From contig CAJFVQ010000024.1 in NCBI GenBank assembly GCA_904420535.1, positions 1 to 39,458 of the forward strand: 39,458 nucleotides of DNA, read 5' to 3'. A program made the translations under genes and the position numbers. Shown here piece after piece: positions 4,816-20,261 of this stretch. The DNA is from Candidatus Cryptoclostridium obscurum (GTDB lineage Bacteria > Bacillota > Dehalobacteriia > UBA7702). The notes under the pieces are model-generated. The model was not told the origin of the DNA and made no database searches. It saw only the letters and a program-made list of their open reading frames with translations. How positions within the stretch are numbered: position 1 is the first letter of the stretch; every line of letters begins with the position of its first letter.

Positions 4816-6030
4816 GTGATTTTCATTAAAAGACGTACCATTGCTTTTTGTTTATTGTTACTTTTTCTTGCGGCAACTGCTTTGCTATGTCTCAGTTACC
4901 AAACGGTTTATGCTGTAACAGTCAATGGTGAACCTTTGCTCTACATAAAAAGTGAGAAAGAGGGCAAAATGATTTTAGACCATTATCTCGATGAAAATAA
5001 GAAGGTTTATGGTGATTCTGTTAATTTTAAACAGGATGTTTCACTGGAGCGGTGCTTTCGCCGCAGTGACATGGAATTTTCCGAAGTAGAGCAAGGACAA
5101 AAGAAATTGCAAAAAGCAACGGAATTGGAGATGGAAGCTGCCGTGATCGTCATTGATGGAGAAGATACCGTTGCCGTGAAGGATGAATCTACTGCTACGG
5201 AAGTACTGGGAGAAGCCCGTGAAGAAGACGAAGCCCCTGCGGATAATGCTGAAATTCTTTCCGAAGGATTCCGCGAAGAGGTAGAAATTGAGGAAAAAGT
5301 CCTTGATGTCGACGCTGTTGTGGCAGAGACTGACGCTGTAGATACTTTGACCGGTGGAGAGGAACCGAAGCTTTGTTGGGAAGTTGTCTATGAGTATACA
5401 AGGACACTGGAAATTGAGGCGCAAATAGAGTACGTCGATGACGATACTCTGGCTTACGGAACCACCAAAGAAATTTCTCCCGGAAAAAACGGCGTCGAAG
5501 AACAAACCATCCATGCAGTACAAGACCAAAACGGTAACTGGGAAGAAAGTGTGGTATCTTCCAGAGTTGTGGAACCTGCGGAAAATCAAGTGATTGCCCG
5601 GGGAACAGGGCCTGTTTTCGCCGATGTTAGTGAACAGATCGTTTTGGGACAGACAGAAGTTCCCATCAGTGGGAGAATTACCGCGACTTTCGGCTCTTCC
5701 GGCGCTTACTGGAGCAATCGGCATACGGGCCTTGACATTGCCGCGGCGGCCGGAACGCCGGTGCGCGTCGTCTCCCCCGGAACTGTTATTTCTGCAGAAT
5801 GGAGCGGATCTTACGGCAATATGGTGACGGTAGATCACGGCAACGGTATTTCTACTCGTTACGCCCATCTTTCCTCCATTTCTGTTGCCGTCGGCGATAC
5901 GTTGGCTTTCGGGGATGTACTGGGGTTGTGTGGCAGCACAGGAAACGCCACTGGAGATCATCTTCATTTGGAGGTACTAATCAATGGTGAATGCCATAAT
6001 CCCGAAGAATTTTTTAATATTTCTATGTAA
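4816..6030 (+). CDS. Membrane-anchored G5 / M23 (LytM) peptidoglycan endopeptidase
   Basis: A 404-residue exported wall hydrolase. An N-terminal membrane segment (about 8-32) follows a basic start. An acidic linker region (about 100-180) leads to a G5-type domain (about 190-275) and a C-terminal M23 zinc peptidase domain (about 290-402). The zinc and catalytic residues are present: H303 and D307 (HTGLD), H351 (YAHLS), and H382 and H384 (HLHLE). It should therefore be active, unlike degenerate LytM proteins. The GTG start at 4816 follows GAAAGGAAG; the ATG at 4814 meets a stop at once. The Spo0A-like boxes upstream suggest a role at sporulation onset, as an inference only. It could equally be a vegetative wall-remodelling enzyme. 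Confidence 0.88.
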   Translation: MIFIKRRTIAFCLLLLFLAATALLCLSYQTVYAVTVNGEPLLYIKSEKEGKMILDHYLDENKKVYGDSVNFKQDVSLERCFRRSDMEFSEVEQGQKKLQKATELEMEAAVIVIDGEDTVAVKDESTATEVLGEAREEDEAPADNAEILSEGFREEVEIEEKVLDVDAVVAETDAVDTLTGGEEPKLCWEVVYEYTRTLEIEAQIEYVDDDTLAYGTTKEISPGKNGVEEQTIHAVQDQNGNWEESVVSSRVVEPAENQVIARGTGPVFADVSEQIVLGQTEVPISGRITATFGSSGAYWSNRHTGLDIAAAAGTPVRVVSPGTVISAEWSGSYGNMVTVDHGNGISTRYAHLSSISVAVGDTLAFGDVLGLCGSTGNATGDHLHLEVLINGECHNPEEFFNISM

Positions 6031-6095
6031 ACGATGTAAAAAATGAAAAAATGTGATAGAATGGGGAAAGAAATGGTAGTAAGGTGGTAATAGCA

Positions 6096-7025
6096 ATGGC
6101 AGATACAAAAGAATTATACGATATGATTATTGTCGGCGGCGGTCCTGCGGGACTTACCGCAGCCATTTACGGCGGCCGTGCCGGTCTAAAAACTCTTGTT
6201 TTAGAACGGGCTATGGTTGGAGGTCAGGCCGCCAATACACATCTTATCGAAAACTATCCTGGTTTCCCCGAGGGGATTGGTGGTTGGGATTTGATGCAGC
6301 TTTTTCTTGCCCAGGCCCAACGTTACGGAGCAGAAGTAGTCACTTCCACCGTAACTGCCTTGTCAGACATGGGAAATGAAAAGCTGGTGCACTGTGGTGA
6401 TATTGTTTATCGCAGTCGTGCTGTAATCGTTGCCAGTGGCGCCGGTCCCCGCCCTTTGGGAGTGCCTGGAGAAGAAGATTTCTCCGGTCGTGGAGTATCC
6501 TACTGCGGAACTTGTGACGGACCGCTGTTTCGCGATAAGACCGTTGTTGTGATTGGCGGCGGTAATACGGCTTTTCAGGAATTGATTTTTTTAAGTCGCT
6601 TTGTAAAAAAGATTTACCTTGTCCATCGTCGCAGTGAGTTTCGTGCCCAAAGAGTTTTAGTGGATGAAGCTCGTGAAAACGAAAAACTGGAATTTTGTCT
6701 CGAGGCGGAAGTCGTCTCCATCTACGGTTCCAATGTGGTAGAAGGGGTGAAGATCCGCCAAAAAGGGGAAGAGCGGGATTTGAAGGCCGACGGCGTCTTC
6801 ATTTTTGTGGGGCATTCGCCCCATACGGAGTTTTGCCAAAATTTCCTGGCCCTTGATGAGGGAGGTTTCCTTTTGGCCGATCCTGATTTAAGAGCGTCCC
6901 GCCCCGGTTTTTATGGCGCAGGAGATGTTGTCAGCAAAGATTTCTTCCAGGTTGCTACTGCTGTAGGCGAAGGTGCTCAAGTGACCCATTCGATCTTAAT
7001 GGATTTTCAAGTACAGGATCAATAA
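6096..7025 (+). CDS. trxB: Thioredoxin reductase-like FAD/NAD(P) oxidoreductase
   Basis: A 309-residue two-dinucleotide-fold flavoenzyme of the thioredoxin reductase family. The FAD motif GGGPAGLTAA is near residue 14, the redox pair CGTC is at residues 137-140 followed by DG, the NAD(P)H motif GGGNTA is near 155, and the closing GAGDVVSKDFFQVATAVGEG binds FAD. Length and order match TrxB, which reduces thioredoxin with NADPH. I chose ATG at 6096 (MADTKELYD) because AAGGTGG lies eight bases upstream; a GTG at 6084 falls inside that site. No thioredoxin gene is adjacent, so a ferredoxin-dependent or other TrxB-like role is possible. Confidence 0.87.
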   Translation: MADTKELYDMIIVGGGPAGLTAAIYGGRAGLKTLVLERAMVGGQAANTHLIENYPGFPEGIGGWDLMQLFLAQAQRYGAEVVTSTVTALSDMGNEKLVHCGDIVYRSRAVIVASGAGPRPLGVPGEEDFSGRGVSYCGTCDGPLFRDKTVVVIGGGNTAFQELIFLSRFVKKIYLVHRRSEFRAQRVLVDEARENEKLEFCLEAEVVSIYGSNVVEGVKIRQKGEERDLKADGVFIFVGHSPHTEFCQNFLALDEGGFLLADPDLRASRPGFYGAGDVVSKDFFQVATAVGEGAQVTHSILMDFQVQDQ

Positions 7026-7046
7026 AACAATCTTATGCCTCATTTT

Positions 7047-7080
7047 ACAGCTGTTACATTAGTAACAGCTGTTTTATTTT
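7047..7080 (+). terminator. Intrinsic terminator after the trxB-like gene
   Basis: A perfect 11-bp stem (ACAGCTGTTAC with GTAACAGCTGT) and a 4-base loop, followed by TTTATTTT. Confidence 0.92.
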
Positions 7081-7162
7081 GTAGTCATAATTGCAAAGGG
7101 AGCAACGTAAAATGGAATAAAGCGCTATGACCAAAAGTGATAGCAAAACAACGGAGGATGGC

Positions 7163-8167
7163 ATGGTAGAAATCGGCGAAATCAGCAGCGCCTGGGGAAT
7201 CGTTCCACAAGAGGTGAAAACGGTTAAGGACAATGTATGGCGCATTAAGGCCGTTGACGGTGAATACGCACTGAAGCGCAGTGGTTTATCTCCCGCTAAA
7301 CTGCAATTTATCGCCGAAGCCCAGAACCATTTAACGCACTGTGGGTTTCAGTACTTTTCCCACCCGTTATTCTGTGGTGGTGCTCCTTTTTTAGAGCGGG
7401 AAGACGGTATCTATACCCTTTACGAATGGGTAGCGGGAGATCGGTGTGATTTTGACCATCTCGGCCATTTGAAGGCTGCAGCGGAGACTTTGGCTCGCTT
7501 TCATTTGGTATCGCGTTTACCATCTGTGGTAAAAATAAAATCCCATAAAAAGCCGGAACTTCGTTGGGTACGTCGCATCAGTACGCGTATTGAGGATATG
7601 GAACGATATGCCGTTGTCGCCTCAGAACATGCCGAAGGTTTTTTTGAAAAAATGTATCTGGCCTTCTATGGTCCTATGATGAAAAAGGCATCGGATTCTC
7701 GTCGTCTACTTTTGTCTTCCGAATATCCGAGATTGGAAGAAGAGGCAAGAAAAGTAGGAAGCTTTATCCACTATGATGTTGCTGCTAGAAATTTTATCAT
7801 TCAAGATGGAAAAGCTTATCTTATTGACTTCGATTACTGTGCTCGAGATCTTCCTTTGGTAGATTTAATGCGCCTTATGAAACGATCTTTGAAGTATGGC
7901 AATAATGCTGAAAATAAATTAAAAGTCATCATCGAAGGGTATGGACGGATCTATCCCATGTCAAAAGAACAATGGGAGGTGCTCCATGCTTTGTTGCTTT
8001 TTCCTCAAAAGTATTGGCGTTTGGCTCAACGATATTTCCAGAATGACCCACACCGTGATAATGACTTTTTTAAAAAGAGAATCCGTACCGCGGTGGCAGA
8101 ATTGGAGCGGGAGGATCAATGGATTAAAATTTTTCGACGATATACAGGGCTGGAGGTGGCAAGATGA
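7163..8167 (+). CDS. cotS: CotS-family spore coat protein (kinase fold)
   Basis: A 334-residue protein of the CotS family, aminoglycoside-phosphotransferase/choline-kinase-fold proteins found in the spore coat. The kinase-like loop is intact: H203-Y204-D205 with N210, and the metal-binding D222-F223-D224, followed by the family-typical DLPLVDLMRLMKR. I start at ATG 7163, five bases after GGAGG; an in-frame ATG at 7127 lacks a good site. Its stop overlaps the next start (ATGA), so translation is coupled. In Bacillus, cotS lies beside the glycosyltransferase gene cotSA, the same pairing as here, which supports a coat function. The phosphorylated substrate is unknown. Confidence 0.85.
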   Translation: MVEIGEISSAWGIVPQEVKTVKDNVWRIKAVDGEYALKRSGLSPAKLQFIAEAQNHLTHCGFQYFSHPLFCGGAPFLEREDGIYTLYEWVAGDRCDFDHLGHLKAAAETLARFHLVSRLPSVVKIKSHKKPELRWVRRISTRIEDMERYAVVASEHAEGFFEKMYLAFYGPMMKKASDSRRLLLSSEYPRLEEEARKVGSFIHYDVAARNFIIQDGKAYLIDFDYCARDLPLVDLMRLMKRSLKYGNNAENKLKVIIEGYGRIYPMSKEQWEVLHALLLFPQKYWRLAQRYFQNDPHRDNDFFKKRIRTAVAELEREDQWIKIFRRYTGLEVAR

Positions 8168-9135
8168 AAGAGGAAGCCAAGGTGCTTTCCTATTGGGGAC
8201 ACCGGGGAGATTTGAGCCGTTGTGGGAAAAATAGCTGGTTGATTAAAAAAGGGAGAGAAAAGTATCGCCTTTTACGGCGCGATGCGGGAGATGGTTTTGC
8301 CATGAGTGAAGCAGCAGTACGCTGCTATTTGGCAGATCGAGGATTTTCCTATCAACCACGTCTCTGCTTGGGAGAAGACGGCGCTGTTGCCAGACGTGAT
8401 AATAGCGAATATTTGTCAGAGCATTGGAGCGGTGCCGGCCGGTTTCCTTTTGATGATGGTTATCATGTGATCGAAGCCGCCCGTGTTCTAGGGGAATTTC
8501 GAAACATTATGATGGATTTTGATTGGCGTGAACATGGATTTCCTATAAAAGAAATGCTTCATCGTCCTCGACGCCTGGAACAGATGTTGGAAACAGGAGA
8601 GCATTGTCAAAGTTCCTTTCGCCACCTATTGCCCCAGGAGGAAATGGAGGATATTTTATCTCGGGGAAAGCGCAGCTTATCCGTACTTTCCGGTCCTCTT
8701 TATGAAAAAGTTTCGGGAAATATTTTGAGAAATGGAGGCGTTGCGTATCGTGCGATTCGGCGCCGCGGATTGATGCTTCACCATGGAGAACCATTGCTTA
8801 CAGATTTTTCCAGACTTTCCGAGGACTTGCCTGTGGTTGATTTATGGCAGCTTCTACGCCGCTATTTTTCTTATGAAGGAAGCCGCGGTGAAGTTATCCA
8901 ATCAGCCATTACTGCCTATGAAGCGCCGTGCCCTCTATCGATAGAAGAAAAAAATATATTGATTCAGTTGTTGTGCTTTCCTTATGTGTTGTTGCGGAAT
9001 TTGGAGCGTTTGGAAAAAGATAAGGCAAACGACCGCTTACGCCGTGAGACGGTTCATATTTTACGAGCGGAGCATTTTCACAAAAATTTCTATCGAGAAC
9101 TGGAAAAGGAGGGGAGCTATGAAAATTGCCATTGA
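8164..9135 (+). CDS. CotS-related protein lacking catalytic residues (probable pseudokinase)
   Basis: A 323-residue relative of the preceding gene; the alignment is clearest at TDFSRLSEDLPVVDLWQLLRR against IDFDYCARDLPLVDLMRLMKR. Aligned back from D214, the upstream loop HYDVAARN becomes YRAIRRRG (195-202). The catalytic His, catalytic Asp and metal-binding Asn are replaced by Y195, A197 and G202. Only the DFD-type Asp (D214) remains. The fold is probably kept for structure or binding. It starts at ATG 8164 with GGAGGTGG upstream and overlaps the cotS stop, and it overlaps the next gene by 17 bases. It is full length with no internal stop, so loss of catalysis looks selected rather than random. 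Confidence 0.75.
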   Translation: MKEEAKVLSYWGHRGDLSRCGKNSWLIKKGREKYRLLRRDAGDGFAMSEAAVRCYLADRGFSYQPRLCLGEDGAVARRDNSEYLSEHWSGAGRFPFDDGYHVIEAARVLGEFRNIMMDFDWREHGFPIKEMLHRPRRLEQMLETGEHCQSSFRHLLPQEEMEDILSRGKRSLSVLSGPLYEKVSGNILRNGGVAYRAIRRRGLMLHHGEPLLTDFSRLSEDLPVVDLWQLLRRYFSYEGSRGEVIQSAITAYEAPCPLSIEEKNILIQLLCFPYVLLRNLERLEKDKANDRLRRETVHILRAEHFHKNFYRELEKEGSYENCH

Positions 9136-10255
9136 CGGACGGGGAGCCTTCCATTACCGTGGTACGGGGATTGGCACGTACACTTGGCGCCTGATTGATG
9201 CGTTGGAGCATGGGATGTATTTTGATACTCCCGAGGATCATCTGCGTGTCTTCTTTCCCGGTGAAGAGTATCGCGGGATTACCATTCAAGATCAATCTCC
9301 CGCGTTTCCTCATCATGGCGGCGATTTATGGCGAGACTATTTTTTGGATCATGCGTTACATCAGGAGGGAATTGAACTTTACCACGTACCGCAAAATGGC
9401 ATTGGTTTGCCCAAAAAAAAGCAGTGTTTGGAAACAGTCACTATTCACGATATGATTCCCTATGTGTTCCCGGAGACCGTAGGAAAAGGCTATCTGAAAG
9501 AATTTTTAGGGGAAATGCCTAAAATTATGGAACGGTGTGATGGTATCATTACGGTATCTCAATGTTCCAAAAAAGATATTTTACGGCTGTTTGATTATCC
9601 GGAAGATCGCATTACAGTGATTGCGGAAGCTGCGGAACCCATTTATCATCCCATACCCAAAGAAAAGGCCAAAGCGCACCTTAGGGACCATTATGGTCTT
9701 ATGGGCGACTATATTATTTATGTGGGCGGTTATGGAATCCGCAAAAATGTGAAAGCTCTTCTAGTGGCGTTGTCTTTATTGAAACATGAAGAAAATCATC
9801 GTATTCAACTGGTGCTCCCGGGAAAGCGGCATCGTGATTTTGACCAGTTGGAACAGTTGGCCGAAGCCTTGAAGATTGGTGATAGAGTGGTATTTCCCGG
9901 TTTTCTCCCGGTAGAAGAATTGCCATATTTTTATGGAGGTGCAGAGTTGATGATTTATCCTTCTATGTATGAGGGGTTCGGCCTTCCTCCTTTGGAAGCT
10001 ATGGCTATGGGCATTCCTGTTTTGGCTGCCAAATCTTCTTCGCTGCCTGAAGTCCTGGGAGATGCCGCTGTCTACTTCGACCCTTTGGACAGTCTAGAAC
10101 TGGCGGAATACATTCATGCCCTATTGCGATGTGAAGGGAAACGTCGCCTCATGGGGGAACAGGGATTGGCCCGGGCAAAAGAGTTTTCTTGGCAGCGAAA
10201 TGCGGAGGAAACCGTAGCTTTTTGGCGTCGCATTATGGAGATAGGCGCGCGATGA
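9119..10255 (+). CDS. cotSA: CotSA-like GT4 family glycosyltransferase
   Basis: A 378-residue GT-B glycosyltransferase of family GT4. The N-terminal acceptor domain starts [19 protein letters not shown], a glycine-rich opening typical of the group. The donor domain carries [24 protein letters not shown] and the nucleotide-sugar motif [21 protein letters not shown]. The ATG at 9119 follows GGAGGGGAG. Position after two CotS-type genes suggests it glycosylates a spore coat or surface component, as proposed for Bacillus CotSA. It is the last gene of a three-gene operon closed by a terminator. Confidence 0.85.
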
Positions 10256-11018: not shown

Positions 11019-11049
11019 AAAATAAACCCTCTAGTAGCTAGAGAGTCAA
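11019..11049 (-). promoter_or_regulatory. MerR-type promoter and operator for the DUF554 gene
   Basis: On the minus strand, TTGACT (11049-11044) and TATTTT (11024-11019) are 19 bases apart. This overlong spacer is the hallmark of MerR-activated promoters. It holds a near-perfect dyad, ACCCTCTAG-TAG-CTAGAGAGT on the plus strand (11026-11046). The -35 element overlaps the stop codon of the MerR-family gene. Confidence 0.8.
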
Positions 11050-11873
11050 GATGTTTTTTGAAAGGGAAGCTGAATTTCTGTAACAAATTGATTGGGATCA
11101 TTGGTGATTCCATAGTCGATCAGGGTGATCTCCACAGAATCGCCGCAGAGCATGTAATGATTTTGATGGAAATATTCTAAAAGTTGGCGGTAGTAACGAT
11201 TTGCTTCGGTATGTTTTCCCCGGAAGCGAATGACGGCATAATCTCCTTCTCGTATAAAACTATGGATACCTGCTGCTTCTGGGAACTCCTCATCTTCCAG
11301 GAGAACAAAAATGGCGGAAAAATTCTTATAGTCTCCCAAAAGAATTTGCTGTTGGTCCATGGATACGCCCACATCACCTAAAAACATTAATCCTTCCAGA
11401 TCATTGGCGCGTTCCAACTGACGGATGGGATACTCCAGATCATCTTCAATGGGAATGGACTGTCTGAGAATTGCTGCTTTGCGCGGCGGAAGATGAATCT
11501 CATGAATTTCATAGAGGGGAGCGTTGAGGGCATCATCAATCTGATGAAGGCGGCGTTGTATTTTTTTCCCAATGCGGTGGAATTCCTGAATGCGATTTTG
11601 AATTTCCCTTTGCTGTTCTCTGAGAAGCGATTTTAGAGTATCTGTTTCTTTTCGATCGAAGAAATGAGCAACGCGATCCAATGGCATATCGAGAGCACGC
11701 AGATATTTGATGGTATTCATTCGTTCGAACTGTTTGGTGGAGTAATAGCGGTAGCCACTATTATCATCCCGCCATTCCGGCTTTAATAAGCCGATTTCGT
11801 CATAATAGCGAAGGGTGCGGATATTGGTTTGAAACAGCTTTGCCATTTCACCAATGGAAAATAGCTCTCTCAT
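11046..11873 (-). CDS. MerR-family regulator with GyrI-like ligand domain (BmrR type)
   Basis: A 275-residue transcription activator. The N-terminal winged helix carries FSIGEMAKLF, TLRYYDEIGLLKP and SGYRYYS. A coiled coil follows (about 80-115), then a C-terminal GyrI-like effector-binding domain (about 125-272), ending ITNDPNQFVTEIQLPFQ as in BmrR-like multidrug sensors. The ATG at 11873 follows AAGGAGG by seven bases. Its stop lies in a MerR-type operator, so the regulator and the DUF554 gene form a likely sensor-target pair. Members of this group bind lipophilic cations or drugs; the ligand here is unknown. Confidence 0.88.
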   Translation of the reverse strand: MRELFSIGEMAKLFQTNIRTLRYYDEIGLLKPEWRDDNSGYRYYSTKQFERMNTIKYLRALDMPLDRVAHFFDRKETDTLKSLLREQQREIQNRIQEFHRIGKKIQRRLHQIDDALNAPLYEIHEIHLPPRKAAILRQSIPIEDDLEYPIRQLERANDLEGLMFLGDVGVSMDQQQILLGDYKNFSAIFVLLEDEEFPEAAGIHSFIREGDYAVIRFRGKHTEANRYYRQLLEYFHQNHYMLCGDSVEITLIDYGITNDPNQFVTEIQLPFQKTS

Positions 11874-11923
11874 CAATTGCCTCCTTTGTGGAAATCATCT
11901 GGAAAACAAGACTTATAAAAATG

Positions 11924-11957
11924 CTGTTGTCATCTTTTCTGTTGACAACAGTTTTTT
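11924..11957. terminator. Hairpin with T-tracts on both sides, in the merR-like leader
   Basis: A 9-bp stem (CTGTTGTCA with TGACAACAG) and a 10-base loop. It is followed by TTTTTT on the plus strand and CATTTTTA on the minus strand. On the minus strand it lies in the leader of the MerR-family gene, where it could act as an attenuator. Confidence 0.55.
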
Positions 11958-12320: not shown

Positions 12321-12338
12321 TTGGCACGATTTTTGCTA
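12321..12338 (+). promoter_or_regulatory. Sigma-54 (-24/-12) promoter
   Basis: TTGGCACGATTTTTGCTA has the invariant GG (12323-12324) and GC (12335-12336) exactly ten bases apart and matches TGGCAC-N5-TTGC fully. It lies about 110 bases before the flavoprotein start. The operon is followed by a gene for a sigma-54 activator. Confidence 0.9.
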
Positions 12339-12449: not shown

Positions 12450-14195
12450 ATGTTAAAAGCAGATGTCGTAATTATTGGAAGCGAAGGCGCCGGAGCACGC
12501 GCCGCGATTGAGGTCGCTCGCCATGGTGTAAAACCGTTGGTTTTGACGAAGGGTCCCATTGGGAAAAGTGGAGCCACCATTACGGCAATGGCCGATTTTG
12601 AGGTTGATTCCCGCAGTGCAAAAGAAGTGTTGGGACTGAATGGCGATATAAGAGACAGTCAAGAGAAATTTTTTGAGGACACGCTGATTAGCGGCGGTTA
12701 CCTGAACAATCAAAAGATGTTGGAACGCCATGTAACTGAAATTCCCGCCATTGCCAAAGAGATGATTGATAAAGGTATGAAAGTGGAAAAAGATCTCGAC
12801 AAAGCAGCCGGTCAATCTTATCCCAGAAGCGTTATCACCACTGGTCACGAATTTATGAAGCCTTTGATCAAAATGTGTAAAGAAGAGAATGTGGCGGTAT
12901 ACGAATACTTTATGGCGACAGATCTGGTAAAGAAGGATGGAAAGATTGTTGGTGTTGTCGGCCTTGATCTGTCCACCGGGGAATTTGTAGAAATCAGCAC
13001 AAAGGCTGTAGTTTTGGCAACCGGCGGCGGTATGCAGATCTACCCCTATTCTACCGCACCGGATGAACTGACCGGAGACGGACATGCCATGGCCTTCCGC
13101 GCCGGAGCATCGTTCATTGATATTGAGATGGTGCAATTTATGGGTGGAACAATGATTGCTCCTCCCGCCGTAGAAGGACAAGGGTTTGGTTATGCGTTAT
13201 GCGCTGATTTAAATTCCATGGATTGTTGGATGCTGAATAAGTTTGGTACCCGCTTCATGGCAGAAAAGGATCCTGTCCACAAAGAACACGTTACCAGAGA
13301 TAAACTTGCTGTCGGTATGATGACAGAAGTCTTTGAGGGAAGAGGCACGCCCAATGGCGGCATCTATGTATCCGTATCGCATCTTCCGGATCAGATTATC
13401 GATCATTATCCCGCAGCGAAAAATGTGCCCTATCTTTCCAAAGATTGGGATTTTATGGGCTTCAATTATAAACAGATCATGGAAGAGGCCAAACGAGGGA
13501 AGGCATTGGAAATGGCCGTTGCCAGTCATTTTTTCTGTGGCGGGATCAAAATTGATGAAACAGGTTCGACAGGAATTCCCGGATTTTATGCAGCGGGAGA
13601 AGTTACCGGAGGAACTGAAGGCGGCAACCGTATTAGCGGAAACGCATTGACTCAGGTTTTGGTGCAAGGGAAAGATGCCGGAGCTTCGGCGGCGGAATAT
13701 GCCAAGAAGGCAAGTTTTGAAGAACTTCCTAAAGATATGGGACAATATAAGGATCGTGTTTTGAGCCCGATCTCCAGGGAAGGAAGCGAATCCTCCTTTG
13801 AATTGCGCAAACGCCTGCAAAAGCTATGTTGGGACAATATGTGTGTAGTCAGAACCGAAGAGTCTTTGCTATACGTAATCAGCGAGCTTCAAAAGTTCAA
13901 AGAAATTCTGCCCCACATCGGAATTCGTGCAAAAAACAGAGTGTATAACCGAGAATGGGTCGACGCGCTACAACTGGAAAGCTTGATTACCGTTGCCGAG
14001 CTGGTGGCGACCGGCGCATTACAACGAAAGGAAAGTCGCTGTGTGCATTATCGCCAAGATTTCCCGGTGGCCGACTATCAGAATTATAGCATGAATAATA
14101 TTCTAGAAAATGATAACGGAAAAATTTCCGCTCATTTTGAACCCTGTGTCGTAACATCAATTTCTATTCCTAAGGAGGCTCCCAAAAATGAGTGA
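12450..14195 (+). CDS. FrdA/SdhA-like FAD-dependent oxidoreductase, non-canonical active site
   Basis: A 581-residue flavoprotein of the succinate dehydrogenase/fumarate reductase superfamily. The FAD motif is VVIIGSEGAGARAAIEVA, and the C-terminal FAD segment GFYAAGEVTGGTEGGNRISG is well kept. Of the known fumarate-site residues, equivalents of Arg287 (VTRDKLA), His355 (ASHFFCGG) and Arg390 (GNRISGNAL) appear present. The VQ(F/Y)HPT motif with His232 is replaced by VQFMGGT. The covalent-FAD His is also absent (KSGAT in place of SHT), as in non-covalent relatives such as L-aspartate oxidase. It starts at ATG 12450 after AAAGGAGG and overlaps the ferredoxin-like gene by eight bases, so the two probably form one enzyme. 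The substrate is probably not succinate or fumarate. Confidence 0.85.
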   Translation: MLKADVVIIGSEGAGARAAIEVARHGVKPLVLTKGPIGKSGATITAMADFEVDSRSAKEVLGLNGDIRDSQEKFFEDTLISGGYLNNQKMLERHVTEIPAIAKEMIDKGMKVEKDLDKAAGQSYPRSVITTGHEFMKPLIKMCKEENVAVYEYFMATDLVKKDGKIVGVVGLDLSTGEFVEISTKAVVLATGGGMQIYPYSTAPDELTGDGHAMAFRAGASFIDIEMVQFMGGTMIAPPAVEGQGFGYALCADLNSMDCWMLNKFGTRFMAEKDPVHKEHVTRDKLAVGMMTEVFEGRGTPNGGIYVSVSHLPDQIIDHYPAAKNVPYLSKDWDFMGFNYKQIMEEAKRGKALEMAVASHFFCGGIKIDETGSTGIPGFYAAGEVTGGTEGGNRISGNALTQVLVQGKDAGASAAEYAKKASFEELPKDMGQYKDRVLSPISREGSESSFELRKRLQKLCWDNMCVVRTEESLLYVISELQKFKEILPHIGIRAKNRVYNREWVDALQLESLITVAELVATGALQRKESRCVHYRQDFPVADYQNYSMNNILENDNGKISAHFEPCVVTSISIPKEAPKNE

Positions 14196-14523
14196 TAAAA
14201 AGATCGTAAAACTTAAGGTATTCCGGTTTGATCCCGCCATCGATCAGGAACCGCATTATGATATTTTTGAAGTAGAGACCCAAACAGGGTACAGCATCTA
14301 TAATGCTTTGGAATATATTGCGGAAAATCTCGACTCAACATTAGCCTATTATGCTTCATGCAGAATTGGGGCATGCAATGGCTGTGTAGCTCGAGTAAAC
14401 GGTAAAGTTGTGCGGACTTGTACCACAATATTGACTGATGATATCACAGTGGAACCGGTAAATAAGGATAAAGTACTGAAGGATCTGGTTTTGAAATGTG
14501 CCCCATTGCCGGAAGTTATGTAA
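14188..14523 (+). CDS. Stand-alone [2Fe-2S] subunit (SdhB/FrdB N-terminal domain)
   Basis: A 111-residue protein equal to the plant-ferredoxin-like N-terminal domain of succinate dehydrogenase iron-sulfur subunits. It has the cluster motif SCRIGACNGCVARVNGKVVRTC, i.e. C-x4-C-x2-C-x11-C, and the opening KIVKLKVFRFDP. The C-terminal half with the 4Fe-4S and 3Fe-4S clusters is missing, and no second iron-sulfur gene is nearby. It therefore passes electrons between the flavoprotein and an unknown partner, possibly a soluble carrier. Its ATG at 14188 follows AAGGAGG inside the end of the flavoprotein gene. Confidence 0.87.
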   Translation: MSDKKIVKLKVFRFDPAIDQEPHYDIFEVETQTGYSIYNALEYIAENLDSTLAYYASCRIGACNGCVARVNGKVVRTCTTILTDDITVEPVNKDKVLKDLVLKCAPLPEVM

Positions 14524-14541: not shown

Positions 14542-16008
14542 ATGGGCCAAAATCAAACATCAACAAAAAAAAGTAGGTTGATCCGAACACCGAGGAAACT
14601 GAGCGTTGCGGAGACATATATCACGATTGCTTTTATGCTCTGTGCCCTGATCGTTTTATATGCCATCGTTGGTTGGGATCTTAAAATTACGTTATTGCTG
14701 GTATTGGCATTTAATGTATTTATGGGATGGCGCATTGGAACCCCTTTTAAAACAATGGAAAAATACATCGGCGATCGTATTGGCAGTTTGGGATTCTTTA
14801 TGCTGGTATTGTTGGGAATTGGTTTTCTCATGGCAACGTGTATTTGTTCCGGTACCATTCCCGTTTTAATTTCTTGGTTGGTACAATGTGTTTCTCCCTC
14901 CATTGTTTTATTGCTGTGTCTGATTTTGCCAAGCATATTGTCGGTGGCTGTGATTTCCAGCTTTGCCACTTTGGGAACTTTGGGGATCATTATGTTTAGC
15001 GTTGCAACTATGTGCGGAGTTCCGCCGGGCCTGGCCGCAGCGGCTTGTATCTGCGGTGCAAATTTTGGACAATACTTCTCTCCTTTAGGAGATACGACGA
15101 ATCTTTGCGCCCAAGTCAATGGCATCAGTATCCAACGATTCATGAAAGGTTTTAGCATTCCCTTTGGAATTTCCTTTGTGATTACGGCTATTGTGTTCTT
15201 CATTCTTGGAAATATGTATGTCAGTGGCTCCGGAACAGGCAGCGATATCGCGGTTATTACCGATTGGGTACATGCGAATTTCAATACCAGCGTACTGGTG
15301 CTGCTTCCCTTTGTTGTGGCAATTGTGTTAGCGTTGTTGAAGGTACATGCCATTATTTTGATTTATGGCACCGGTGTTACTGCTATGATTCTCGGCTTTA
15401 CCTTGCAAGGTTTTGGTGTTGTCGATTGTATTAATGCAGCTTATAACGGTTTTTCCACTGATATTATGATGCCGGGAGTGGAAATTCCCGAAGCGGTTTC
15501 AAGTCTGCTGAATCGCGGCGGTATTTACAGCATGGCCGACGGTATTGTCTTTTTCCTGATTATGCTGGCCTGTATTGCCGTATTAGATGCCATCGGTGTC
15601 TTTGATGTATTGAAAGAGTCGATGTTTAAAAAACCTGGTACAGCAGGAGTTATGACGTTGAAAGCATCGATTTGCAGCTTCGTTTTTGCCATTGTTGCCT
15701 GTGAGACCTATACTACGGTCATGCTCAGTTCCGAGGTAATTAAGCGCCCCATAGAAGCTGCCGGCTATGATCCGACGAAGGCAGCCAATATATCAATTGC
15801 TATGGGGCAACTGACCTCATATTTATGTCCCTGGTCTTTTTTGGCGATTTATATGGCGGCGATCTGCGGCGTATCGGTTTTAGATTTTGCACCCTATGCC
15901 GTGCTGTTCTGGATTTTACCCATCGTAATTATCGTATTGAGTTTTCTGGGAATCGGCAATAAAAAATTGCAGACCGTCAAAGCCGAGGTTCCTCAGGGAG
16001 AATTGTAA
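14542..16008 (+). CDS. NhaC-family Na+/H+ antiporter-like transporter
   Basis: A 488-residue membrane protein with about twelve hydrophobic segments of the NhaC family. Typical motifs are CGANFGQYFSPLGDTTNLCA and SYLCPWSFLAIYMAAI, matching the S/C-P-L-(G/S)-D-(S/T) and PW regions of the family. The ATG at 14542 follows CAGGAGGTG, 18 bases after the ferredoxin-like gene. Members exchange Na+ for H+ or, in divergent clades, organic anions (for example malate for lactate). In this operon it may export a product or recycle Na+ brought in by the next transporter; both are inferences. Confidence 0.85.
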   Translation: MGQNQTSTKKSRLIRTPRKLSVAETYITIAFMLCALIVLYAIVGWDLKITLLLVLAFNVFMGWRIGTPFKTMEKYIGDRIGSLGFFMLVLLGIGFLMATCICSGTIPVLISWLVQCVSPSIVLLLCLILPSILSVAVISSFATLGTLGIIMFSVATMCGVPPGLAAAACICGANFGQYFSPLGDTTNLCAQVNGISIQRFMKGFSIPFGISFVITAIVFFILGNMYVSGSGTGSDIAVITDWVHANFNTSVLVLLPFVVAIVLALLKVHAIILIYGTGVTAMILGFTLQGFGVVDCINAAYNGFSTDIMMPGVEIPEAVSSLLNRGGIYSMADGIVFFLIMLACIAVLDAIGVFDVLKESMFKKPGTAGVMTLKASICSFVFAIVACETYTTVMLSSEVIKRPIEAAGYDPTKAANISIAMGQLTSYLCPWSFLAIYMAAICGVSVLDFAPYAVLFWILPIVIIVLSFLGIGNKKLQTVKAEVPQGEL

Positions 16009-16045: not shown

Positions 16046-17473
16046 GTGCGGCCGGATCAAGAAATAGTAGAAAGGAGGAAAGAATACGATGGGATAATTG
16101 AACAGTTTGGAGCTTTTGTCGCGGATCTGGGCGCATGGTTGTGGGGGATTCCACTACTGATCATATTCCTTTTTTGTTATTTGTTTATCTCAGCCAGTAC
16201 GGGATTTGTCCAGTTTCGACATCTCGCCCATATCTGTAAAAATACCTTTGGTGAAATGTTTGGCCGTAAAAAGGGAGAAGGCACTATCCGCCCCTTCTCC
16301 GCCGCCATGACGGCGCTTGCCCAAAGTGTGGGTGCTTCCAACATTGTGGGCGTGCCTCTAGCGATTGCTATCGGTGGGCCAGGAGCACTCTTCTGGCTAT
16401 GGGTTGCCTGTCTTTTGGGAATGGGGATGCGATATGCGGAAATCGCCATCGCCGTAAAATACCGAGAAAAAAACGCCAATGGCGAATGGGTAGGCGGCCC
16501 CCAAATGTATATGAAAAAGGGACTCCGCGCCGGGGCTTTGGCGATGGTATGGTCCGTTGCTTATGTTCTGGTGGTGTTGCTTTCCGTACCTGCGCAAACT
16601 GCCTCTGTTGTTGAAAATGCTTCCACCGTTGGTGTACCTGGATGGCTGGTAGCCGGTATTATGTTTATTGCTACCGCGCTTGTCATTTTTGGCGGCATCA
16701 AACGTATTGCAAAAATTACGGATATTTTGGTCCCTTTTATGGCGCTGTTTTATTTCCTTACGGCATGGGGCATTATATTCTCTCACGGCAACGCTTTGGG
16801 TAGTTCTTTGGTACTAGTATTTCAGTCGGCTTTTGCTCCAGCTGCCGCTGTTGGCGGTTTTGCGGGATCCGGTGTGATTATGGCAATTCGTCAAGGGGTA
16901 GCTAGGGGGATTTATTCTTTCGGCGCTGGTATGGGGGACTTTACCATTGCCCATGCTGCGGCAATTACAGATCATCCGTGCCGTCAAGCCCAGTGGGGAG
17001 TTTTTGAGATGATATGCAGTTTTGTTATTTGTACAACTTCCGGCTTATTGGCTTTGACAACAGGTTTGTGGACTGTTGGAGAAAGTGCCGCAGGAACCAT
17101 TCCCTCATTGGCTTTTGCCGAGTTTTATCCCGGAAATTTAGGACCAATTCTGTTATCTATTTCCCTGTTTTTGTTTGCCTATTCCACCATTTTGGTGGCG
17201 ATTCACTATGGACGTAAACAGGCGGAATATGTCGGTGGACAAAAACTGTCCCAAATTATGGGGGTAGTATATCTTCTTTGCATACCTTTTGGCGCAGTTG
17301 CCACCATGGGATATTTTTTAAATTTCGTAGACATTATGCTGGCCTTTGTTGTATTTACAAATATTATTTCTGTAACACTGATGTGGAAGCAAATCAGAGC
17401 GCTTGTAGCAGATTATTTCGGGAATCCAAATTTTTATCCGCGGAGAAAAAAGTTTCGCAATGAAAACGGATGA
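16046..17473 (+). CDS. AGCS-family Na+:amino acid symporter (start region suspect)
   Basis: A Na+/alanine(glycine) symporter family member with about eleven hydrophobic segments. Family motifs include GEGTIRPFSAAMTALAQSVG, the stretch around SNIVGVPLAIAIGGPGALFW, WVGGPQMYMKKG, GVARGIYSFGAGMGDFTIAH and an AYSTILVAIHYG region. The open frame begins at GTG 16046, which has no ribosome site. A strong site (AAAGGAGG, 16071-16078) lies inside this frame and points to ATG 16089, which is one base out of frame and reads Met-Gly-stop. One extra G in the GGG run would give MGIIEQFGAF in frame. The true product is probably about 461 residues, and the copy as read is frameshifted at codon 2, or one G is missing from the sequence. 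It is likely the substrate importer of the operon. Confidence 0.82.
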   Translation: MRPDQEIVERRKEYDGIIEQFGAFVADLGAWLWGIPLLIIFLFCYLFISASTGFVQFRHLAHICKNTFGEMFGRKKGEGTIRPFSAAMTALAQSVGASNIVGVPLAIAIGGPGALFWLWVACLLGMGMRYAEIAIAVKYREKNANGEWVGGPQMYMKKGLRAGALAMVWSVAYVLVVLLSVPAQTASVVENASTVGVPGWLVAGIMFIATALVIFGGIKRIAKITDILVPFMALFYFLTAWGIIFSHGNALGSSLVLVFQSAFAPAAAVGGFAGSGVIMAIRQGVARGIYSFGAGMGDFTIAHAAAITDHPCRQAQWGVFEMICSFVICTTSGLLALTTGLWTVGESAAGTIPSLAFAEFYPGNLGPILLSISLFLFAYSTILVAIHYGRKQAEYVGGQKLSQIMGVVYLLCIPFGAVATMGYFLNFVDIMLAFVVFTNIISVTLMWKQIRALVADYFGNPNFYPRRKKFRNENG

Positions 17474-17532: not shown

Positions 17533-18318
17533 ATGACTCTAGTATTAGAAAATCAAGTTGCTGTAGTTTTTGGCGGAGCCGGAATTATTGGGGCGGAAAT
17601 GTGTAAAGCCCTGGGGGCTGCCGGCGCAGCTGTTGCCGTTCTGGACATGTTGCCGGAATCAGCGCAAAAAGTCGCGGATGAAATTGTTGCCGATGGAGGC
17701 AAAGCGTCGGCTTTTCAATGCAAAGCCGATGAAGAAGATAGCGTGGCTGCCGCTTTAAAAGCTGTCCATGATGCTTATGGCCGTATTGACATTTGTGTCA
17801 GCAGTATTCACAGACAATTTATTCCCGAATTTGTTGTGAACCAAACTTGGGAATATTGGGATCGTCATATCGAGGCAATTAAAATCCATATGTTTATCTG
17901 TAAACATACGGTGCCATATATGCAGGAACATCGATATGGACGTATTATCTATATTTCCGGTGGGATGTGCCGGCGTTTTTATGAAGGCGGCTCGGCTTAC
18001 TCCTGTGTCAAAGCCGGTTTAAATGCTTTTACGAAAACCCTTGCTATGGAGGTTGGTAAGGATAATATCATGGCAAATGTCATTGCTCCCGGCCGTATTG
18101 TGGACGAGTCCGGCGGGCTTACTTCTGAACGAGCAAATGCTTTGGATAGTAAAGCCGAAGAAGATCCCATGGATGATGTGTGCGAAGCCCCCACGGGACA
18201 ATATGCTACGGCAAAGCATGTTGCTGAATGCGTTGTCTGGTTAGCTTCCCCAGGATGCTACAATACGACAGGGCAGACGATTTATGTCGGTGGCGGCGAA
18301 ATCATGCCGATGCCCTGA
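17533..18318 (+). CDS. Short-chain dehydrogenase/reductase (SDR)
   Basis: A 261-residue NAD(P)-dependent oxidoreductase of the classical SDR family. The nucleotide-binding glycine motif is GGAGIIGAE near residue 14, the active site has a Ser in ISGGM and the Y-x3-K motif YSCVK, and the C-terminus has the usual ASPGCYNTTGQTIYVGGG. The structural NNAG motif is altered to VSSI. The ATG at 17533 follows AAAGGAGG. As the last gene of the sigma-54 operon it probably oxidises or reduces an alcohol/ketone intermediate of the imported substrate; the substrate is not identifiable. Confidence 0.87.
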   Translation: MTLVLENQVAVVFGGAGIIGAEMCKALGAAGAAVAVLDMLPESAQKVADEIVADGGKASAFQCKADEEDSVAAALKAVHDAYGRIDICVSSIHRQFIPEFVVNQTWEYWDRHIEAIKIHMFICKHTVPYMQEHRYGRIIYISGGMCRRFYEGGSAYSCVKAGLNAFTKTLAMEVGKDNIMANVIAPGRIVDESGGLTSERANALDSKAEEDPMDDVCEAPTGQYATAKHVAECVVWLASPGCYNTTGQTIYVGGGEIMPMP

Positions 18319-18524: not shown

Positions 18525-20261
18525 TTATTCTGGAGGAATAAGGTCGAATTTTTTTATTTTATATTGTAGATTGGAACGACTGAGCCCCAATGATTCTGCG
18601 GCTTTTGTGATATTCCATCTGTACTTTTGCAATGCGTTGGAGATGAGCGATTCCTCGATTGCGGTGAGAGTATCTTTTAGATTTCCGTCATTGCATTGTT
18701 GGCTGTATGCTTGAGTGCCATCTTGTTCTGGAAAAAGTGGCGTGCTGTTTTCATTATTTTGGGCGTGTAATTCCGGAAGACGGAAGGAGATGCTGTCAGA
18801 ATCTAATATTAACAGAGAATGGAGCATCGTATTTTGTAATTCTCGCACATTTCCCGGCCAAGAATAGGACATCAATGTTTCGTGATTTTTGGGGGACAAA
18901 CAGATGCAAGGGATCTCATAAGCCGAAGAGTATTTCTCCAGAAAATATTCAGCCAGCGGAATAATATCTTCCTTTCGCTCTCTTAATGGAGGTACATTGA
19001 TGGTAAGCGCGGAAATTCGATAATAGAGATCCTCCCGCAAAGTATGGTTGGAAATGCACTCCTGGGGTTGCTGATTAATGGACGACATGATCCTGCACCC
19101 TACCTTATGCTCCTTGGTGTCACCAAGCTTACGGTATGTTTTTTCCTGGATGACTCTTAACAATTTTGCTTGAAGGTTACCGGGCATGGAATTGATTTCG
19201 TCCAAAAACAGTGTCCCTTGACCGGCCTGTTCAATAAGGCCCTTGGTATTTTTTGCCTCGGTAAAAGCACCGGGTACAGAGCCGAATAATGTAATCTCAA
19301 GCAGATTTTCAGGAATGGCGGCGACATTAACGGCAATAAAGGGCTGCGACGCATTGGCACTGGCATTGTGGATGCTTTGAGCGATCATTTCTTTCCCGGT
19401 ACCAGTTTCTCCGCAGATCAGGATAGGTACTAAATTGAAAGAGGCTGCTTTTTGTGCAAGTTTTATGGTTTCTTTCATGGATGGGCTTTCTCCAATGATG
19501 CTGGAGAAAGTATAGTAAGTGTTATTTTTATTGGTATTTTCGGCGGAGATTTGGTTTTGGTACTCCAGGATATCATTTAATAAGGGGGTAAGCTGTGTAT
19601 TCCAGTGAAGCACAGTACAAGCGGCAATGGTTTTCCCTTCTTTTTTAATGGGATAAGAACTGCCGAAGGCAACGATGGTTTTTCCAGATGGTGTTGTATA
19701 TACATTTTTTTTATTTAAAAGTTCCTTTCCTGTTCTCAATGTTGTCAACATATTGCTGCTTTCTGGATTTGGAAAAACTTCTTCGTATTTTTTCCCAACG
19801 ACCATTTCCGGAGATGTGTCATCATCGGAGTGAATTGATTGCGGCAGATGGTAGAGTAACGTCGTATGATCTACATCACTGATCATAAACCCTAAATCAC
19901 TTGCGGAATTCATAAATTCCTTATAGATATATAATTCATCCATGGATTTTTTAGTGGATGTATTGTCAGATATTGTATAAAAATAGAAAGGTTCTCCTTG
20001 AAAATTCTTTTTACTACTATGAACAGAAAGGATACAATCATTCAACTGAAACGAGAATTGGGTTCTGCTTTTAGGCAAGGAAGATAATTTTTTTATGAGG
20101 ATCTCTTTGGCTAAATGCATTGTCGTGGAAAAATCAATGAAGGCTTGGTTATAACATACGATGTTATAATTTTCTGCAATCATGACGATGCTGCAAGGGA
20201 GACAGTCCAAAAGATTTTTTGCCTCTTTCAAATTTGACTTTAAAGAATCTTGTTGTTGCAT
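18525..20261 (-). CDS. Sigma-54-dependent activator (PAS, AAA+, Fis-type HTH)
   Basis: A 578-residue enhancer-binding protein. Two PAS-like sensory regions (about 15-110 and 115-235) precede the AAA+ domain (about 255-485). Walker A is GETGTGKE (284-291) and Walker B GTLFLDEI. The C-terminal Fis-type helix-turn-helix reads NITKAAESLGLSRSNLQYKI. The sigma-54 contact loop is GAFTEA (331-336), not the usual GAFTGA. The ATG at 20261 follows GAGAGGAGAG. It is convergent with the only sigma-54-promoted operon in the window and is its likely activator. The PAS domains presumably sense the substrate or a metabolite. Nothing else is assigned in 20262-20454 apart from an AT-rich region that may hold its promoter. 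Confidence 0.92.
   Translation of the reverse strand: MQQQDSLKSNLKEAKNLLDCLPCSIVMIAENYNIVCYNQAFIDFSTTMHLAKEILIKKLSSLPKSRTQFSFQLNDCILSVHSSKKNFQGEPFYFYTISDNTSTKKSMDELYIYKEFMNSASDLGFMISDVDHTTLLYHLPQSIHSDDDTSPEMVVGKKYEEVFPNPESSNMLTTLRTGKELLNKKNVYTTPSGKTIVAFGSSYPIKKEGKTIAACTVLHWNTQLTPLLNDILEYQNQISAENTNKNNTYYTFSSIIGESPSMKETIKLAQKAASFNLVPILICGETGTGKEMIAQSIHNASANASQPFIAVNVAAIPENLLEITLFGSVPGAFTEAKNTKGLIEQAGQGTLFLDEINSMPGNLQAKLLRVIQEKTYRKLGDTKEHKVGCRIMSSINQQPQECISNHTLREDLYYRISALTINVPPLRERKEDIIPLAEYFLEKYSSAYEIPCICLSPKNHETLMSYSWPGNVRELQNTMLHSLLILDSDSISFRLPELHAQNNENSTPLFPEQDGTQAYSQQCNDGNLKDTLTAIEESLISNALQKYRWNITKAAESLGLSRSNLQYKIKKFDLIPPE

Follow-up and report, generated by a model that had tools for sequence, protein, structure and literature searches.

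What does a flavoprotein of the complex II superfamily do when its fumarate-binding motif is replaced and its only apparent partner is a shortened iron–sulfur subunit? This question is raised by two overlapping genes in a 39,458-nucleotide stretch of DNA (hereafter, the window) from the spore-forming bacterium Candidatus Cryptoclostridium obscurum, and it was approached through domain, structure, alignment, tree and gene-neighborhood analyses.

The Gene Pair

Both open reading frames were correctly located from the outset: the flavoprotein gene occupies positions 12450–14195 and the partner gene positions 14188–14523, both on the forward strand, with an overlap of 8 bp. Chance can be excluded, because both genes are conserved at 76–79% identity, in unchanged order, in another genome (locus L032).

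The first gene codes for a 581-aa FAD flavoprotein of the SdhA/FrdA/NadB superfamily. Domain search revealed FAD_binding_2 (162 bits) and Succ_DH_flav_C (93 bits) domains, and the protein starts directly with the dinucleotide-binding motif, without a signal peptide. Its AlphaFold model (pLDDT 84) has an SDHA-like fold that best matches Mycobacterium Sdh1 (TM 0.85). The sequence shares 20–30% identity with fumarate reductases (FRD), succinate dehydrogenases (SDH) and NadB, and falls far under every NCBIfam cut-off for these three families. The top NCBIfam model is TfrA (NF004900; 375.9 bits versus a cut-off of 718), while the scores against the NadB (TIGR00551) and flavocytochrome c (TIGR01813) models are 208 bits (cut-off, 452.75) and 137.6 bits (cut-off, 285.45), respectively.

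The second gene codes for a protein of 111 aa that contains a Fer2_3 domain, also matches the related Fer2_4 weakly, and has all four [2Fe-2S] cysteines (Cys58, Cys63, Cys66 and Cys78); no 4Fe-4S domain was found in it by domain search. The AlphaFold model of this small subunit (pLDDT 86) covers only the N-terminal half of FrdB (TM 0.82 by query and 0.39 by target), so the original prediction that the partner corresponds to the N-terminal half of an SdhB is borne out. The same holds for the missing anchor: neither a cytochrome b nor any other membrane anchor gene is present in the operon, where the pair is followed by transporter genes.

Active-Site Residues

The flavoprotein was aligned with FrdA, SdhA and NadB of E. 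coli, as well as with the flavoprotein of the genome's own canonical FRD. In the column of FrdA His232, the window flavoprotein has Met (QFMGGT versus QYHPTG), which confirms the proposed replacement of HPT by MGGT (residues 231–234). A different His filling the His232 place was considered and ruled out, as the position is Met in the sequences with the MGxT form and Leu, Ile, Tyr or Met in wider relatives, with conserved flanks. The FrdA columns Thr244, Glu245 and Arg248 are lost as well, Thr244 being replaced by Cys, and the column occupied by Phe in FrdA and SdhA, and by Glu121 in NadB, is Ala. FrdA Arg287, His355 and Arg390, on the other hand, are kept as Arg283, His360 and Arg394, as had been claimed from the sequence; this triad is invariant in two of the alignments (A1 and A3) and present in all of the sequences lacking HPT.

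According to the literature, the equivalents of Arg394, His360 and Arg283 in urocanate reductase (UrdA) bind the urocanate carboxylate, the Arg283 equivalent serves as the acid, and the distal His site is occupied by Tyr373; UrdA does not act as a fumarate reductase, although slight activity of this kind appears with the Y373H substitution (PMC7921117). By the same logic, the window enzyme is expected to hold one carboxylate and to be unable to grip a second one.

Around the covalent-FAD His44, the window flavoprotein has SGAT where FrdA has SH-T, in agreement with the reported absence of this residue. Because the FAD-linking His is missing, the cofactor is predicted to be bound non-covalently, with a potential lowered by roughly 90–150 mV. 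Soluble homologs with non-covalent FAD have been found to reduce fumarate and not to oxidise succinate (PMC9557727).

Phylogeny and Distribution

When 398 genomes of the phylum were searched with the window protein (E ≤ 1e-80), 14 of them had matches. No matches were obtained when GTDB contigs were scanned with this single protein, whereas an alignment-based scan of the contigs yielded 20 loci, including those from archaea, Pseudomonadota, Chloroflexota, Spirochaetota and Synergistota; two of them had the MGxT form, and both were already known. The plasmid search returned only distant relatives, all of them below 60% identity and the best one listed at about 30%.

The maximum-likelihood tree was built from 56 rows, leaving out two duplicates and five of the 30 TfrA-like reference loci, whose ORFs had come out in the wrong frame. 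All 28 sequences without HPT fall on one side of a single branch (support 95/85), the window flavoprotein with its short Fer2_3 partner among them, and they originate from Bacillota, Pseudomonadota, Myxococcota, Chloroflexota, Spirochaetota, Synergistota and Nitrososphaerota. The NadB group adjoins this clade (91/90). Within it, the MGxT form defines a subclade of four members (100/100), namely the window protein, its paralog on contig C94, and proteins of genomes G313 and G417; these four were the only ones encountered, in three of roughly 590 genomes searched with the window protein. Elsewhere in the clade, the His232 site reads MFLPY, QFYP, QFIP and similar. Thus, the loss of the His is confirmed, but it is not specific to MGGT, being common to the broad clade and comparable to the Tyr of UrdA. 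The columns of Thr244, Glu245, Arg248 and Phe/Glu121 are likewise changed nearly everywhere in the clade.

Inspection of the raw DNA at 29 loci showed that a short, [2Fe-2S]-only partner of 104–123 aa is encoded at 25 of them, adjacent to the flavoprotein gene in all but two cases (about 4 kb away in L044 and about 0.8 kb away in L058). The shortened subunit is therefore a trait of the clade and no local oddity. Two loci have a longer iron–sulfur subunit: a TfrB-like protein of 511 aa with Fer4 and CCG domains in L041, and one of 224 aa, as measured from the match, in L043. At the remaining two loci no iron–sulfur partner was found within the stretch examined, which in L059 starts at a contig end. 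In the tree as drawn, L041 and L043 together branch off before the rest of the clade, and it therefore appears, with moderate support (87/81), that the fumarate site was lost first and the 4Fe-4S/3Fe-4S domain afterwards.

Operon Organization and Regulation

The pair heads a five-gene operon, and the gene order is identical in L032 (71–79% identity). The three genes downstream, all on the forward strand, code for an NhaC-type carrier of the Na_H_antiporter family, which also resembles the arginine/ornithine antiporter ArcD (14542–16008; 71% identity to L032), an AgcS-type sodium:alanine/amino-acid symporter scoring above the TIGR00835 cut-off (16046–17473; 72%), and an SDR-family NAD(P) dehydrogenase similar to 3-hydroxybutyrate dehydrogenases and 3-oxoacyl reductases (17533–18318; 79%).

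A sigma-54 (-24/-12) promoter, TGGCACG-N4-TTGCT, is located at positions 12322–12337 of the forward strand, 112 bp upstream of the flavoprotein start. The 39-kb window contains no other full-consensus site of this type, and none is expected according to 60 Markov shuffles; the genome encodes RpoN (rpoN). On the opposite strand, convergent with the operon, lies a gene for a PrdR-like sigma-54 activator with AAA+ and Fis HTH domains and a weak PAS match (18525–20261), which is the probable regulator of the operon. Its homolog (40% identity) stands divergent to the paralog operon on contig C94, upstream of which a good -24/-12 site (at 2114 of locus L015) and a TGTT-N10-AACA element (at 2033) were detected; the latter resembles activator sites reported in Clostridiales (PMC6615313). 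No classical TGT-N10-12-ACA activator site was found close to the window promoter. Further upstream, at 11927–11948 of the window, an inverted repeat (TTGTCA-N10-TGACAA) directly precedes the gene of a MerR/GyrI-like regulator (11046–11876, reverse strand) and is likely the operator of that regulator.

Related Loci in the Source Genome

The 2.1-Mb genome contains a second FAD/[2Fe-2S] pair, 61% identical to that of the window (contig C94, locus L015, 195–8182). It is accompanied by the sigma-54 activator gene, a 2,4-diaminopentanoate-dehydrogenase-like gene, an NhaC gene and a gene for an additional permease-like protein, and the two pairs represent two specialised versions of one system. An ornithine operon under sigma-54 control in Clostridiales likewise contains both ord and nhaC (PMC6615313). 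A full ornithine pathway was considered as an explanation of the paralog and rejected, as none is present beside either 2,4-diaminopentanoate-dehydrogenase-like gene.

A canonical FRD is encoded separately on contig C49 by genes for a flavoprotein, an anchor-like protein of 215 aa and an iron–sulfur subunit of 261 aa. Contig C9 carries yet another FAD_binding_2 protein (5055–9227), which has the HPT motif and an N-terminal extension and is devoid of the Succ_DH_flav_C tail; upstream of its gene is one for a protein of 242 aa that weakly matches Fer2_3, and downstream are thiF- and thiG-like genes (identified by eye), and this group possibly performs a redox step in thiazole synthesis. On contig C66 (9318–13169), genes for an MttB-like protein of the trimethylamine methyltransferase superfamily and a uroporphyrinogen-decarboxylase-like methyltransferase (by eye) were noticed, from which the organism may demethylate quaternary amines.

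Genomic Neighborhoods of the Relatives

In G417, a LIV-type ABC transporter and an arginase-family gene most similar to 3-guanidinopropionase lie beside the pair. The neighbors of wider relatives include M20 hydrolases (a cluster of 11 ORFs), M24 creatinase/ectoine-hydrolase-like proteins, creatininase, arylmalonate-decarboxylase (Amdase)/EutA-like proteins, amidohydrolases, DUF1989 proteins, RidA together with a class-V aminotransferase, and a carbamoyltransferase together with PreA. The thread common to these neighbors is the catabolism of nitrogen compounds, which is a pattern and not a statistic, with genes that vary between subclades. Clade members with uptake and hydrolase genes occur in marine Arenicellales and Rhodospirillales, as well as in Burkholderiales.

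In Anaerolineae (L062 and L063), the pair lies among Amdase, M20, carbamoyltransferase, MoaD-like, PreA-like and aldehyde:ferredoxin oxidoreductase (AOR) genes, a setting that resembles clusters for anaerobic degradation of purines and pyrimidines or of ureides. AOR is found beside the pair in four separate lineages (L034, L054/L055, L057 and L062/L063), at some of these loci accompanied by ferredoxin-like genes; this association may indicate either that the pathway involves an aldehyde or what the electron carrier is. AOR was ruled out as the electron partner in the source organism, the genome of which has no AOR gene.

Proposed Function and Alternatives

The original proposal, a soluble oxidoreductase of two subunits that differs in substrate and electron partner, still accounts best for the residues, the shortness of the partner and the lack of an anchor, although that difference goes beyond what was observed. 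The explanation favored here, tentatively and with somewhat less than even confidence, is that the two proteins work in the cytosol as an FAD/[2Fe-2S] oxidoreductase, which dehydrogenates an amino-acid-type monocarboxylate and passes the electrons to a soluble carrier; from the data above we infer complex formation, the substrate class, the direction, the carrier and the regulator assignment.

According to this proposal, the FAD subunit with its SDHA fold and the small [2Fe-2S] subunit would form a cytosolic complex, in which Arg394 and His360 would hold one carboxylate of the substrate and Arg283, beside the flavin, would act as proton donor or acceptor, as in FrdA and UrdA. The FrdA residues that bind a second carboxylate (His232 and Thr244) and relay protons (Glu245 and Arg248) have been lost, and the substrate should therefore not carry a carboxylate at its far end. 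Candidate substrates would be amino acids as well as beta/omega-amino, guanidino-derived and N-alkyl amino acids, presumably brought in by the Na+ symporter of the operon. The substrate class is suggested by features that the original proposal did not cover: the sigma-54 promoter with its regulator, the conserved five-gene operon with its transporters, the paralog, and the amino-acid and amidohydrolase genes that recur next to the relatives. Hydride would be transferred to the non-covalent FAD, and the [2Fe-2S] cluster would deliver single electrons to a soluble carrier, e.g., ferredoxin or flavodoxin, and not to quinone; because the distal clusters and the anchor are missing, electrons are expected to enter or leave at the [2Fe-2S] subunit through such a carrier. 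The SDR may handle a carbonyl or hydroxy partner compound, the NhaC-type carrier may exchange substrate or product, and sigma-54 with the PrdR-like activator would turn the operon on.

A dehydrogenase is more likely than a reductase, and oxidation is favored because of the gene neighbors, the proximity to NadB and the uptake- and hydrolase-linked members in probably aerobic marine and soil lineages. A reductive role is nevertheless quite possible. As a serious though less probable alternative, the pair could be an electron sink that reduces an alpha,beta-unsaturated monocarboxylate in the manner of UrdA during Stickland-like amino-acid fermentation, with ferredoxin or another low-potential carrier feeding electrons through the [2Fe-2S] subunit. 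The residue pattern matches that of UrdA, where the distal His has been lost and the Arg and His for the carboxylate and the acid Arg remain; the PrdR-like regulator recalls the control of proline reductase, and fumarate is already served by the separate canonical FRD. Non-covalent FAD lowers the flavin potential, which favors reduction (PMC9557727), and together with the kept acid Arg283 it would suit enoate reduction too. Against this, no enoate-making lyase or dehydratase is present in the operon, and relatives with catabolic hydrolases belong to probably aerobic marine and soil lineages; the uptake and hydrolase genes of Arenicellales, Rhodospirillales and Burkholderiales are more in keeping with catabolic oxidation than with an electron sink.

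Returning to the dehydrogenase, its special case would be the oxidation of beta-alanine or another 3-amino acid, with the SDR reducing the semialdehyde formed. Such an enzyme could descend from an aspartate-oxidase-like ancestor by loss of the second-carboxylate site, aspartate being a beta-amino acid with an extra carboxylate. The tree position beside NadB, the product (beta-alanine) of the 3-guanidinopropionase to which the G417 neighbor is closest, the PreA, amidohydrolase and M20 neighbors of pyrimidine/ureide type (L062, L063), and the resemblance of the SDR to 3-hydroxybutyrate dehydrogenase are all consistent with it. It is unlikely, however: Glu121, by which NadB recognises the amine, is not kept, and diamino acids would suit the NhaC carriers and the 2,4-diaminopentanoate-dehydrogenase-like gene beside the paralog equally well. 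The Ala in the Glu121 column also counts against the main proposal, as it leaves amine oxidation without support from a specific residue. The substrate of the MGxT subclade is poorly constrained, since the subclade has only four members.

It is very improbable that the enzyme is a true FRD, SDH or aspartate oxidase with an unusual distal site, for although the fold, the domains, 20–30% identity and three catalytic residues are shared, the His232, Thr244, Glu245, Arg248 and Phe/Glu121 columns are changed, the NCBIfam cut-offs of all three families are missed widely, and a canonical FRD that includes an anchor-like subunit is encoded elsewhere in the genome.

Significance

Relatives of complex II usually receive the annotation fumarate reductase or succinate dehydrogenase, and the members of this clade would be misread in the same way. 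The clade forms a natural series in which first the distal carboxylate site and then the 4Fe-4S/3Fe-4S domain were apparently lost, and on which the conversion of a respiratory enzyme into a soluble catabolic one could be tested. A broader scenario is conceivable, if rather doubtful: a widespread branch of the complex II superfamily lost the fumarate site once, and later the quinone-side half of its iron–sulfur subunit, and turned into a soluble FAD/[2Fe-2S] enzyme that dehydrogenates amino acids from guanidino, ureido and diamino catabolism, e.g., beta- or omega-amino acids, with electrons going to soluble carriers. If confirmed, the substrate would provide a function for many as yet unassigned flavoprotein genes located near amidohydrolases in Bacillota, Pseudomonadota, Chloroflexota and archaea.

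Precedents exist separately for the fold, for the two domains and for the loss of the distal His. In the open-access literature, no description was found of a non-HPT flavoprotein paired, throughout a clade and across several phyla, with an SdhB fragment that has only the [2Fe-2S] domain, nor of an enzyme of complex II fold with amino-acid dehydrogenase activity, although such absence is weak evidence.

Comparison with Known Systems

Similar to complex II (SdhAB, FrdAB), the window pair has the SDHA fold, the FAD_binding_2 and Succ_DH_flav_C domains, the catalytic Arg/His/Arg residues and the [2Fe-2S] domain of SdhB. Unlike complex II, it lacks His232, Thr244, Glu245, Arg248 and the covalent-FAD His, and, whereas SdhB carries three clusters, the window partner is devoid of the 4Fe-4S/3Fe-4S domain and no membrane anchor is present. 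With NadB, the window flavoprotein shares the absence of the covalent-FAD His, the kept Arg/His/Arg triad and a neighboring position in the tree, but NadB is a lone flavoprotein, and its His244, Thr259 and Glu121 are replaced by Met, Cys and Ala, respectively. The soluble two-subunit plan and the top NCBIfam model are those of the methanogen thiol:fumarate reductase TfrAB, and a TfrB-like or full-length iron–sulfur subunit persists in the early-branching relatives L041 and L043; unlike TfrB, the window partner has neither Fer4 nor CCG domains and hence no thiol site. As in UrdA, the carboxylate-binding residues are kept and the distal His is lost (Tyr373 in UrdA; PMC7921117), whereas UrdA is extracytoplasmic, carries an FMN domain and has no iron–sulfur subunit, in all of which the window pair differs from it.
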